The translations under genes and the position numbers were made by a program. The notes under the pieces are model-generated. The model saw nothing but the letters and a program-made list of their open reading frames with translations, had not been told where the DNA came from and did not search any database. DNA of 48,734 nucleotides from Acidimicrobiaceae bacterium (GTDB lineage: Bacteria; Actinomycetota; Acidimicrobiia; Acidimicrobiales; RAAP-2), in NCBI GenBank assembly GCA_027314705.1, contig DAHVAJ010000014.1:1-48734 (forward strand). Direction: 5' to 3'. This document shows, piece by piece, positions 17,984 to 22,990 of this stretch. How positions within the stretch are numbered: position 1 is the stretch's first letter; every line of letters begins with the position of its first letter.

Positions 17984-18763
17984 TCAGGCCCCCGGCCCGC
18001 GGGTGCCGTCCGGGGCGTCGACGGCCGCCACCGTGCCGTCCGGGGCGGGGAGCCAGAGCCGGCACTGCCGGGCCCGGGCCGCGGAGCGCCGGCCCTGGGC
18101 CGTCACGACCACGAGGCGGCGAGTCAAGTGGCCCGCACCGGCAGCGGTCCCCTCCCACGTTGCCTCCTCCACCAGCAGACGGAGGTCGGGAGGCTCGGGC
18201 CAGCCCGTCCGCCCCGGGAGGGCGACGAGTACGGTGCCGCGCTCGCGGGCCCGGGCCACCAGCCGCCGGGCCATGGCCGGCCGGGGGGCGAAGGGCGGGA
18301 CGAGGACCACGAGGTCCACCCCGTCGATGAGGGTGGCCGTCGTTTCCGCCCAGGCCGGACCGGGCCGAGGGACGACGGCCAGACGGTCGAGGTCGACGCC
18401 GAGGTCGCTGGCCGCCACCGCACCGAGGCCGTCGTGCCCGACCAACGCGCACCAGGAGCCGGTCCGCGACGCCTCCGCCACCAGGGCGAGGGCCAGGCTG
18501 AGGACGGCCTGCTCTCCGGGGCCCCCGACCACCAGGGAGGAGCCGCGTCGCAGGGCGCCGTCGGGCAGCAGTCCGGCCACCACCCCGGACACCGGCAACA
18601 GGCGGGTCCGGCTGGCGGCGACCGGCCGGGTGCGTACGGCCAGCCGGGCGAGGGCGGCCCGGGCGTCGGGGTCGAGGGTCCGGTCGATGGCCTGCCGGGG
18701 GGCGGCCCCGCCCGCGGGCGGCGGTGCATCCGCGGCCCGGGGCCGGGGAGGTACGACGAACAT
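17984..18763 (-). CDS. imuA: ImuA' (RecA-fold SOS mutasome factor)
   Basis: The 259-residue protein has a RecA/SulA-like core: LLPVSGVVAGLLPDGALRRG, then SSLVVGGPGEQAVLSLALAL in place of an ordinary Walker A, WCALVGHDGLGAVAASDLGV, LIDGVDLVVLVPPF and RARERGTVLVALPGR. The P-loop Lys is absent, as expected for the ImuA' group. It heads the imuA'-imuB-dnaE2 operon. The start is ATG 18763: it lies 7 nt after the -10 box TACTAT and inside an SOS box, so the transcript is probably leaderless and repressed by LexA directly at the start site. A longer in-frame reading to 19009 would run through the promoter and is rejected. Confidence 0.88.
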   Translation of the reverse strand: MFVVPPRPRAADAPPPAGGAAPRQAIDRTLDPDARAALARLAVRTRPVAASRTRLLPVSGVVAGLLPDGALRRGSSLVVGGPGEQAVLSLALALVAEASRTGSWCALVGHDGLGAVAASDLGVDLDRLAVVPRPGPAWAETTATLIDGVDLVVLVPPFAPRPAMARRLVARARERGTVLVALPGRTGWPEPPDLRLLVEEATWEGTAAGAGHLTRRLVVVTAQGRRSAARARQCRLWLPAPDGTVAAVDAPDGTRGPGA

Positions 18764-18776
18764 ACGTTCGATAGTA
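18757..18776 (-). promoter_or_regulatory. LexA (SOS) box overlapping -10 region and start codon of imuA'
   Basis: On the minus strand the sequence reads TACTAT (-10), directly followed by CGAAC-GTAT-GTTCG. The latter is a perfect 5-bp palindrome and an 11-of-12 match to the actinobacterial SOS box TCGAAC-N4-GTTCGA. The ATG of imuA' lies within its centre. LexA bound here would cover the transcription start point. Confidence 0.85.
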
Positions 18777-18839
18777 CCGAGGTTCGGGCGGCCCTGCCCA
18801 GCCCGGCCCGGGGCCCGTCCGGCCTGCCATCCTGGCGGG

Positions 18840-19385
18840 ATGATCACCACCCTCGAGACCGACCGCCTGCTGCTCCGGCCGTTCGCCGCGGCGGACCTCG
18901 ATGCCCTGGCCGTCCTCCACGCCGAGGAGGCCTTCTGGTGGTACCCACTCCGCCGGGCGATGACCACAGAGGAGACCGGACGGTTCCTCGACCGGGTGCT
19001 GCAGGACACCGCTGACCCCGGTCGGCCGGCCTTCCACGCTGTGGTCGAGCGGTCGACCGGGTCACTCGCCGGCTGGGTCGGCCTTGCGGTCCCGGACTTC
19101 CTCCCCGAGGTCCTGCCCGCCGTCGAGGTCGGCTGGCGCCTCGGCCGCGCCTACCGCGGTCGGGGCTATGCCACCGAGGCCGCCGCCGCCACGCTCCGCT
19201 GGGGATTCGACGGACTGGCCCTCGACGAGGTGCTCAGCATCTTCGAGCCGGAGAACGTCGCCTCGGGCCAGGTCATGGACCGGCTCGGCTTCGACGCCGG
19301 AGTGTCGACGGTGCATCCGGCCTTTGGCCTGCCGCTGGTGGTGCGCACCCTGACCGCCGGGGCGTGGCACCGTCGGCCGGTCTGA
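18840..19385 (+). CDS. GNAT-family N-acetyltransferase (RimJ/RimL-like)
   Basis: The 181-residue protein begins TLETDRLLLRPFAAADLDAL, the typical opening of RimJ/RimL-like acetyltransferases, and carries the acetyl-CoA loop GWRLGRAYRGRGYATEAAAA (motif A, about 99-118). It then shows LDEVLSIFEPENVASGQVMD with the conserved N for the catalytic region. The substrate is unknown; such proteins acetylate protein N-termini, antibiotics or small amines. It diverges from imuA' with 76 bp between the two starts, so the SOS box might also affect it. There is no clear ribosome binding site; GGCGGG lies just before the ATG. Confidence 0.87.
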   Translation: MITTLETDRLLLRPFAAADLDALAVLHAEEAFWWYPLRRAMTTEETGRFLDRVLQDTADPGRPAFHAVVERSTGSLAGWVGLAVPDFLPEVLPAVEVGWRLGRAYRGRGYATEAAAATLRWGFDGLALDEVLSIFEPENVASGQVMDRLGFDAGVSTVHPAFGLPLVVRTLTAGAWHRRPV

Positions 19386-21415: not shown

Positions 21416-22441
21416 GTGCAGCACGTGATCATCGAGGGCCGGGGCCGGGTCCGCCTGGCCGACGCGCCGGACCCGGTGCCGCCCGGGCCCGACGGTGCGG
21501 TAGTGGCCGTCGACGCCACCGCCATCTGCGGGTCCGACCTCCACTTCTACGACGGCGACCTTCCGTCGGAGGGCGGGGTGGCGGTGGGCCACGAGTTCCT
21601 CGGCACGGTGGTCGAGGTGGGCCCGGCGGTGCGCCGGTTCCGCGTGGGCGACCGCGTGCTCACCGCCTCGGTGGCCGGGTGCGGGCGCTGTGACGGGTGC
21701 GCCACGGGCGACCCGGTGTGCTGCGTGGAGGGGCCGAAGGTCTTCGGCTCCGGCATGCTCCCCGGGGGCCAGGCGACGGCCGTCGCCGTTCCCGCCGCCG
21801 ACTTCCAGCTGCTGGCCGTGCCCGAGGGGCTCGATGACGAGGCCGCACTGCTCCTCACCGACAACCTGTGCACGGGCTGGGCCGGGGCCCAGCGAGCGGA
21901 CGTCCCGCCGGGTGGCACCGTGGCCGTCCTGGGCCTCGGGGCGGTCGGTCTCTGCGCCGTACGCTCGGCACTGGCCCTCGGTGCGGGCCGGGTCCTGGCC
22001 GTCGACCCGGTGGCCGGACGCCGGACGCGTGCCGTCGCGTCAGGGGCCGTCGCCGTCGAGGGCCCGACGGTCGAGGGGATCCTCGAGGCCACCGGCGGCC
22101 GCGGCGCCGACGCGGTCATCGACGCCGTGGCCCTCGATGCGAGCCTCGACCACGCCCTGGCCGCCGTCCGGGCCGGGGGCACCGTCTCGGTCGTCGGCGT
22201 CCACGACCTCGCCCCCTACCCCCTCCCGCTGCTCCTCACCCTGCTGCGCAGCGTCACCCTGCGCACGACCACCGCGCCCGTCCACCGCACCTGGGCCGAG
22301 TTGGTGCCCCTGGTACAGCAGGGCCGGCTGCGGACGGACGGGATCTTCACCCACACCTTCCCCCTCTCCGAAGCGGCCGCCGCCTACGAGGTCGTGGCCG
22401 CACGGACCGCCGAGTGCGTGAAGGTCCTCCTGCGGCCCTGA
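21416..22441 (+). CDS. Zinc-dependent alcohol dehydrogenase (MDR family)
   Basis: The 341-residue protein has catalytic zinc ligands in ICGSDLHFYDG (Cys38) and GHEF (His59, Glu60). The structural zinc motif GCGRCDGCATGDPVCC supplies Cys89, Cys92, Cys95 and Cys103. A Rossmann segment, VAVLGLGAVGLCAVRSALAL, and GGRGADAVIDAVA bind NAD(P). It oxidises an alcohol or reduces an aldehyde; the substrate is unknown. GTG 21416 is chosen because GGGGG lies 5-6 nt upstream and the family begins at about this point. It diverges from the monooxygenase gene, with 85 bp between the starts. Confidence 0.88.
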   Translation: MQHVIIEGRGRVRLADAPDPVPPGPDGAVVAVDATAICGSDLHFYDGDLPSEGGVAVGHEFLGTVVEVGPAVRRFRVGDRVLTASVAGCGRCDGCATGDPVCCVEGPKVFGSGMLPGGQATAVAVPAADFQLLAVPEGLDDEAALLLTDNLCTGWAGAQRADVPPGGTVAVLGLGAVGLCAVRSALALGAGRVLAVDPVAGRRTRAVASGAVAVEGPTVEGILEATGGRGADAVIDAVALDASLDHALAAVRAGGTVSVVGVHDLAPYPLPLLLTLLRSVTLRTTTAPVHRTWAELVPLVQQGRLRTDGIFTHTFPLSEAAAAYEVVAARTAECVKVLLRP

Positions 22442-22509
22442 GCTCCGGGATCGGGCCGTCCCGCCGCCAGCCGGCCGCCGGGATGGGCCGACCCGGATGC
22501 GGCCGGCGC

Positions 22510-22515
22510 TACCAT
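22510..22515 (+). promoter_or_regulatory. -10 box of a short independent transcript
   Basis: TACCAT lies 69 bp after the alcohol dehydrogenase stop. By the spacing seen elsewhere in this window, transcription would start near 22522. The -35 region is not recognisable. Confidence 0.4.
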
Positions 22516-22535
22516 GGGCGGACCAGAGGAAGGAG

Positions 22536-22589
22536 GTGGTCCAACTGCACAGTCAACGTTTCGGGACCCTGGAGGTGGCTGGCCGCTGA
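22536..22589 (+). CDS. Possible 17-residue leader peptide
   Basis: GTG 22536 to TGA 22587-22589 encodes VQLHSQRFGTLEVAGR after the initiator. The start is fused to the Shine-Dalgarno run, so initiation here would be unusual, and a CTG four codons in is a further option. It is listed because a strong ribosome binding site with nothing else to translate asks for an explanation. Confidence 0.25.
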   Translation: MVQLHSQRFGTLEVAGR

Positions 22590-22707
22590 GGCGGCTCGCT
22601 GTACCACCTGGCGAATCCCAGCCAGACACCCACCGGACCACCTAGCCGGACCCAGGTCCCATCCGGCGCTCCACGGGGGGCACGGTGCCAGCACAGCAAC
22701 GTGGTAC

Positions 22708-22737
22708 CTGCGGGGCGCCTCCTGGGGCGCCCCGCAG
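22708..22737 (+). terminator. Strong 12-bp hairpin, probable intrinsic terminator
   Basis: CTGCGGGGCGCC, a 6-nt loop TCCTGG and GGCGCCCCGCAG form a perfect stem. It is the longest perfect hairpin noticed in the window. No T-run follows, as is usual in this genome. Confidence 0.65.
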
Positions 22738-22990
22738 CGCGCCGCCGGTCGACCCGGGTGCCGCCGCCGCCAGGTCGGGATGACGGGGTCCGGGGCAGGC
22801 GCCTTCCGGAGTCGACCGTCGTCACGGACCGTCCCATGAGCCCACTCACGACGATCGACGGTCGGATGACCACGGTGCCGGGCCCGGCCCGCGCCGGTTC
22901 CGGCATCGCCGCGGCCCCCCGGACGTCGGCCGCTCACCTCGGCGCCCTCGTCCGGCCCGGTCGTCGGCGGTCACCAGAGGCCGCGGCCCG
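22738..22990. other. Gene-free gap before the MFS gene
   Basis: No convincing gene is seen. An open frame beginning near ATG 22837 ends with the TGA that overlaps the MFS start, but its Pro/Arg/Ala-rich product looks like noise. The MFS promoter should lie here but no clear -10 box was found. Confidence 0.4.

Follow-up and report, generated by a model that had tools for sequence, protein, structure and literature searches.

A divergent RNA of Acidimicrobiia related to the Ms_IGR-5 family, with a conserved short reading frame behind an extended Shine-Dalgarno element

An intergenic RNA and its relation to RF02471

The DNA analyzed here, designated the window, was a stretch of 48,734 nucleotides on contig DAHVAJ010000014.1 in the 2.69-Mb draft genome of an Acidimicrobiaceae bacterium. 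Between two of its genes, at positions 22510-22737, lay a segment that the initial annotation had described as a candidate novel structured RNA with a Shine-Dalgarno (SD) element that could be sequestered. A check of the sequence found the letters to be as described, with AAGGAGGTG at 22530-22538, AGGTGGTCC at 22534-22542, an exact 9-nt complement of the latter, GGACCACCT, at 22635-22643 (spacing 92 nt), and GGACC-CA-GGTCC at 22648-22659. A small folded RNA seems to be made from this intergenic stretch, with a 5' end that probably lies near 22522; the features assigned to it are collected in Table 1. In folding stability the window RNA did not exceed its dinucleotide shuffles (z -0.40).

A TANNNT box just upstream, at the distance of the TACCAT of the window, was found in 172 of 261 homologs; two control windows gave counts of 0 and 6. 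A consensus scan of the window returned neither a promoter nor a terminator. The 12-bp hairpin described at the 3' end was present but had no T tract. In the relatives whose sequence extends that far, a G+C-rich hairpin was seen by eye at the terminator position.

Table 1. Features of the unit and the kind of evidence for each (window coordinates)
Feature	Sequence and remarks	Position	Strand	Evidence
-10-like box	TACCAT	22510-22515	+	sequence
P1, 5' strand	CCAG, pairs with CTGG at 22569-22572	22523-22526	+	covariation
Extended SD element	AGGAAGGAGGTGGTCC, in the P1 loop	22527-22542	+	16 nt complementary to the 16S 3' end GGAUCACCUCCUUUCU, G-U allowed
Micro-ORF (candidate)	CTG start, (M)HSQRFGTLEVAGR, stop TGA at 22587-22589	22545-22589	+	fixed stop in homologs
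Pseudoknot, 5' strand	GGGACC, inside the ORF	22563-22568	+	covariation
P1, 3' strand	CTGG, inside the ORF	22569-22572	+	covariation
P2, 5' strand	GGTGGCTGG, inside the ORF	22574-22582	+	covariation, inner part
P2, 3' strand	CCAGACACC	22622-22630	+	covariation, inner part
P3, 5' strand	CACCG, pairs with CGGTG at 22683-22687	22631-22635	+	by eye in alignments
P4, 5' strand	GCCGGA, pairs with TCCGGC at 22662-22667	22645-22650	+	covariation
Pseudoknot, 3' strand	GGTCCC, in the P4 loop	22655-22660	+	covariation
P4, 3' strand	TCCGGC	22662-22667	+	covariation
P3, 3' strand	CGGTG	22683-22687	+	by eye in alignments
Terminator-like hairpin	12 bp, no T tract	22708-22737	+	sequence

A search of the whole window against Rfam at gathering thresholds returned only a tRNA. 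In an E-value search, RF02471 (Ms_IGR-5, an actinobacterial sRNA) matched the interval 22400-22800 with 42.1 bits (E 2.3e-8), 2.9 bits below the gathering cut-off of 45, and the match spanned the full model, with 22522-22693 corresponding to model positions 1-184. All eight relatives that were searched matched RF02471, two of them above the cut-off (L020, 50.5 bits; L028, 47.8 bits) and six below. In the class, 35 of 148 genomes matched at E<=0.01, one above the cut-off, and in the phylum 70 of 396 genomes, 34 above the cut-off.

A covariance model, R1, built from 27 sequences of the window's order only, matched 145 of 296 genomes of the class and 93 of 396 genomes of the phylum, the window's own genome being included in both counts. 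The two models gave an identical place in all 41 genomes matched by both. Their union comes to 122 genomes, provided that the 396 drawn for one model are also those drawn for the other, which their labels imply. The scores of R1-found homologs against RF02471 were 175.9 bits for L160, 182 for L169, 97.9 for L175, 43.5 for L092 and 24 for L164. Nine of 14 R1-found homologs tested had no RF02471 match at E 0.1, so that either R1 has a longer range than the Rfam model or RF02471 covers just part of a larger group. By DNA similarity, the unit was matched in 56 of 100 genomes searched, its own included, at the loose limit of E<=0.01, five of the matches being weak and short (E >1e-4).

The R1-matched genomes carried one copy of the RNA each, except G212 and G572, which had two. 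Two other genomes, G044 and G009, each had two strong DNA matches to the unit, on different contigs. Many genomes, including small ones of the window's own family, gave no R1 or RF02471 match in these searches, which lose weak matches, and no similar DNA was found in plasmids and phages. Among the matches listed in a pattern scan of named genomes, the RNA was present in records whose titles name Acidimicrobiia, Solirubrobacterales/Thermoleophilaceae and numerous genera of the Actinomycetes. Two copies, L212 and L253, occurred in metagenome-assembled genome records titled Acidobacteria/Acidobacteriota; a mis-binned contig is likely for L253, because it encodes exactly the peptide of the window.

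By sequence comparison, the unit is a divergent Acidimicrobiia relative of the RF02471 Ms_IGR-5 family; the initial description is supported in calling the RNA structured but not in calling it novel. The results support a self-contained, structured and conserved RNA of about 215 nt. It matches RF02471 over the full length of the model and has the same 5' SD block, and by eye the pseudoknot strands are shared with the Rfam consensus. As to the consensus secondary structure, its 3' hairpin agrees by eye with P4 and its first helix lies outside the fold that covaries here. The Rfam description mentions neither a micro-ORF nor a match to 16S rRNA. L160, L169 and L175, which are far above the Rfam cut-off, also hold the micro-ORF described below.

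The family was reportedly described originally by Li et al. in 2013. Its members have been reported as transcripts in Streptomyces and M. smegmatis: the S. lividans member, SLIV_16488 of strain TK24, is transcribed according to RNA-seq (PMC8079986), S. avermitilis has a transcription unit for such an sRNA (PMC8780764) and, in M. smegmatis, there is an overlap with a detected sRNA gene (PMC10454040). The available portions of the open-licence literature contained no account of a micro-ORF, a 16S match or a pseudoknot in the family.

The conserved fold

Alignment A1 comprised 27 of 30 aligned loci, with two incomplete loci (L013 and L025) and one near-duplicate (L024) left out. The helices were tested against 500 shuffles in a sequence-only alignment of 70 of the 100 A2 rows (length up to 186). 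The 100 A2 sources were picked by hand, as were 60 regions and another 20 regions.

For P1, the pseudoknot, the inner part of P2 and P4, the number of double-change cells was above that in every one of the 500 shuffles. P1 was paired in 99.6% of 280 cells with 29 double-change cells (shuffle mean 4.7, maximum 11); among the matches listed for the named genomes, a separate set, it was fully paired in 62 of 80 rows (shuffle mean 20.3, maximum 29), while nine rows had no pair at this register. The pseudoknot was 95.4% paired (shuffle mean 91.7, maximum 93.0) and had 11 double-change cells (shuffle maximum 6). The four pairs of inner P2 (22579-22582 with 22622-22625) were 96.8% paired with 54 double-change cells (shuffle maximum 28), and P4 was 79.4% paired (shuffle maximum 67.2%) with 85 double-change cells (shuffle maximum 52). 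The four pairs of outer P2 were 66.8% paired, equal to the shuffles; this part seems to be misaligned, and in another listing of homologs it pairs by eye. The comparative analysis thus showed a conserved fold that consists of P1, inner P2, P4 and the pseudoknot.

Other candidate helices were rejected. Neither P2b (CCGC/GCGG) nor P2a had an excess over the shuffles, and pairing of the SD with an ACCACCU loop near 22602-22610, at 87.8% by letters, was equal to them. RNAalifold, applied to the 27 A1 rows, returned a different nested structure, for which the covariation term was only -0.48.

The initial annotation had proposed a riboswitch-like unit in which 22635-22643 masks the SD. The 9-bp complement is exact and the helix is present in the computed minimum free energy structure of the window RNA; energy alone, in a comparison that does not count the pseudoknot, favors this helix by 13.2 kcal/mol (-102.2 for the free minimum versus -89.0 with the conserved nested fold forced). 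The relatives argue against it on three counts: 1) the partner, GGACCACCTAG, was found in one of the 27 order-level A1 rows, which is the window itself, 2) an exact 9-nt complement anywhere in the next 220 nt was present in only 16 of 261 homologs and 3) in the 70 rows, 44.3% of the cells of the 22534-22542/22635-22643 stem were paired, compared to 44.1% after shuffling. The alignment and the shuffle counts largely refute SD masking as a conserved mechanism, and such a unit is very improbable. The competing hairpin, GGACC-CA-GGTCC, would need a 2-nt loop, and GGTCCC is the 3' strand of the conserved pseudoknot. The unit as a whole was conserved (56/100 genomes) while the two stems originally named were not.

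A short reading frame and an extended SD element

The initial annotation had noted a frame of 17 codons, from GTG at 22536 to TGA at 22587, which is the micro-ORF of Table 1 read from a GTG inside the SD. This observation was upheld as a conserved short frame behind a strong SD. All of 100 hand-picked R1 hits had a stop at GAGGTG+15 (UAG in 68, UGA in 22 and UAA in 10), and 81 had an in-frame ATG, TTG, CTG or GTG 8-13 nt past GGAGG; the start was CTG in 19 of the 100. With a looser anchor that did not require a stop, 146 of 153 matches had the stop at the fixed place, and of the other seven, six were off target by inspection while the last, L173, has the look of a diverged member.

In the pattern scan of named genomes, which tests the frame most cleanly, the SD, GGAC and GAGGTG were fixed while start and stop were left free; it gave at least 120 stretches and at least 80 loci, and the 80 listed were all used. 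Among the matches listed, the stop was at one fixed place in 80 of 80 homologs and 79 had an in-frame start (ATG, GTG, TTG, CTG or ATC) 7-13 nt after GGAGG, compared to 27 and 3 for the other two frames. When only ATG, GTG and TTG were admitted, these 80 loci gave 69 starts in frame versus 16 and 0 in the others; CTG served as the start in 7 and ATC in 3. The distance from the SD to the stop covered all values modulo 3 (44, 23 and 13 of the same listed loci) and the start was still in frame, indicating that the start moves with the frame. Nearly all distinct frames (227 of 230) had 12-15 codons, according to the length of the linker. In the window the start is CTG, a weak codon. The comparison of homologs thus showed a short frame, with its start and stop conserved, behind a very strong SD element.

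The 3' end of eleven 16S rRNA genes from seven genomes of the phylum was GGATCACCTCCTTTCT. A search of the draft genome that holds the window showed no 16S gene, and the 16S end was taken from these relatives, the last base of the mature rRNA being assumed. All 16 letters of the extended SD element were pairable with this end in 144 of 153 loose matches, six of the 144 being off target; since nine of the 16 positions are set or limited by the search anchor, only seven constitute a free test of the match. At the free positions the changes were mostly A to G opposite U, with retention of the pair. The calculated duplex was -27.3 kcal/mol with the 16S end, compared to -18.3 kcal/mol with the partner at 22635-22643. 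The initial annotation had considered binding of ribosomes or mRNAs by an "anti-SD-like" element, but the element predicted to pair with the 16S 3' end is the SD-like strand itself.

The pattern AGRRRGGAGGTGRTCC, which misses variants such as those with G at the first position, had 27 sites in 25 of 31 genomes. Twenty-two of these sites were this RNA. The remaining five carry AGAAAGGAGGTGATCC, which complements the 16S end exactly, and are apparently 16S genes.

A weak match to RF01867 (CC2171, a Caulobacter sRNA) was also observed, both in the window (22520-22602, 14.2 bits) and in L020 (1441-1658, 27.4 bits), against a cut-off of 75. The RF01867 consensus holds GAAAGGAGGUGAUCCAG near its start, which is likewise complementary to the 16S end, and it may possibly represent a similar ribosome hook in another phylum.

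The encoded peptide was much less constant than the frame. Among 256 homologs, the P1 codon specified 10 different residues and the P2 codon 12, and the residues of the linker were mixed (Ser 28%, Asp 9%, His 8%). In a test on 230 distinct frames, confined to pairs with 1-3 differences, which are not independent, the linker had 135 synonymous and 440 non-synonymous differences, a synonymous share of 0.235 versus 0.177 expected. By codon position the differences numbered 267, 387 and 279, with no excess at the third. Weak selection on the peptide may exist, as the synonymous share was somewhat above expectation, but the linker gave hardly any sign of amino-acid selection and what appears to be kept is the frame rather than the peptide.

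These observations bear on the possibility that the RNA is a dual-function sRNA in which the peptide is the product that matters. In its favor, T (246/256) and R (213/256) were nearly constant near the C-terminus, and the linker had a small synonymous surplus; E and V at this end are set by the search anchor. Nevertheless, the T and R codons fall in constrained RNA strands, the residues at the P1 and P2 codons vary freely and the third positions of the linker show no excess. SgrS and SR1 are sRNAs that also hold an ORF (PMC11133741); here, by contrast, the peptide shows little sign of selection. This explanation is quite improbable.

Neighboring genes and a proposed translation-operated switch

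In 34 of 151 distinct loci, the RNA was followed by a co-directional gene for an uncharacterized protein of 60-70 amino acids, at a distance from the SD of 228-321 nt in 32 of them and of 499 and 708 nt in the other two. The protein (L030, 2015-2233, and 33 other loci of order- and class-level relatives) had the form RFEHxRxLGDKRTQxVYDLD...FGPDTLAEARNRGYR. No Pfam or NCBIfam family was found for the L030 copy, and the protein had no match in the window's own genome in a search run without a positive control. Among the matches listed, the next gene was convergent in 52 of 80 named genomes and co-directional in 22, and none was picked in 6, by a crude gene picking; the downstream genes also differed among 20 further loci. 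In five class-level loci (L177-L180 and L187) the convergent neighbor is presumably a cysteine synthase. Upstream of the RNA, 13 loci among L003-L024 had a minus-strand ORF that resembles an ImuA/RecA-like protein; an ORF of similar appearance lies at 17984-19009 of the window, also on the minus strand.

Neighbors that vary and are mostly convergent point to an RNA that stands by itself, although it may act in cis in certain clades. A cis-acting attenuator, in which a translated leader decides whether a terminator forms ahead of the downstream gene, would fit the loci where the 60-70 amino acid protein is encoded co-directionally. As a general explanation it is improbable, given the predominance of convergent neighbors, the variety of the downstream genes and the failure to match the small protein in the window's genome. 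A riboswitch acting on one linked gene is likewise unlikely across the phylum, as the loci examined had no constant linked gene and convergent neighbors prevail among the 80 listed. In leader-peptide attenuators of the trp type and in regulatory uORFs, a short frame stands behind an SD, together with overlapping helices and a downstream hairpin, as it does here. The present RNA differs in that there is no constant downstream gene, the linker residues are hardly constrained and codons for a single regulatory amino acid were not found in the linker.

The reading that we favor, with a probability of roughly 60%, is that of a self-contained RNA related to RF02471 whose fold would be opened by ribosomes as they translate a frame of mostly 12-15 codons. 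According to this proposal, a ribosome would be caught by the SD, the 16 nt of the P1 loop that are pairable with the 16S 3' end, and would then initiate at a start 7-13 nt past GGAGG (CTG in the window), read through the short frame and halt at the fixed stop just after the 5' strand of P2. As the 5' strand of the pseudoknot, the 3' strand of P1 and the 5' strand of P2 all lie inside the frame, its translation could proceed only if P1, P2 and the pseudoknot were opened. The RNA would switch between two forms, one free and folded, the other open and held by the ribosome, and would refold when free. Because the amino acids change under a conserved frame, it is probably the act of translation, not the peptide, that matters functionally. 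With hook, frame, stop and fold conserved and the peptide drifting, the most plausible reading is a switch that is operated by translation and acts from its own transcript. The ribosomal reads on family members, taken up below, also speak for it. Against it weigh the score of the window below the Rfam cut-off, the preference for the other helix on energy alone and the weak CTG start, and the co-directional small gene in 34 loci would fit cis control in those clades. Transcription and translation in the window's organism, the switch itself and an action in trans are what we infer from these comparisons.

The same elements could be combined differently, in that the RNA may be a trap that holds the 30S subunit by the 3' tail of 16S rRNA, with translation of the micro-ORF as the release step, by analogy with 6S RNA. 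Several observations are consistent with a trap: 1) the 16-nt match and the strength of its calculated duplex, 2) the near confinement of the 16-mer pattern to this RNA, 3) the weak starts, CTG in 19 of the 100 R1 hits and CTG or ATC in some of the named-genome matches listed, and 4) the significant ribosomal reads reported on Ms_IGR-5 homologs of M. abscessus and M. smegmatis (PMC4974804). However, a well translated mRNA likewise has a strong SD and an ORF, and in that report ribosomal reads are not specific, being found also on other non-coding RNAs, including 6C, F6 and tRNAs (PMC4974804). A trap is a possible but doubtful explanation.

The resemblance to 6S RNA would be that the RNA mimics the site to which a central machine binds and is set free when that machine works; here the predicted partner is the ribosome instead of RNA polymerase. 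In the case of 6S RNA, it is the synthesis of a short transcript that frees RNA polymerase. Extended to the whole phylum, the analogy suggests, as a speculation that we consider unlikely, a pseudoknotted ribosomal counterpart of 6S RNA that captures the 16S 3' tail of the 30S subunit and parks this subunit at a start codon. Translation of the frame would then release the RNA and let it refold, the peptide being irrelevant. If this were true, the state of the RNA would report or buffer initiation capacity.

For the family, the favored translation-operated switch would move the question from which mRNA pairs with the RNA to what translation does to the RNA. An RNA so far listed as an sRNA holds a kept frame (stop in 80/80 and start in 79/80 of the matches listed), and its SD hook is the only site of the 16-nt pattern in 31 genomes of close relatives, apart from apparent 16S complements. 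With the fold, the frame and their coordinates now given, the proposal can be tested in Streptomyces.
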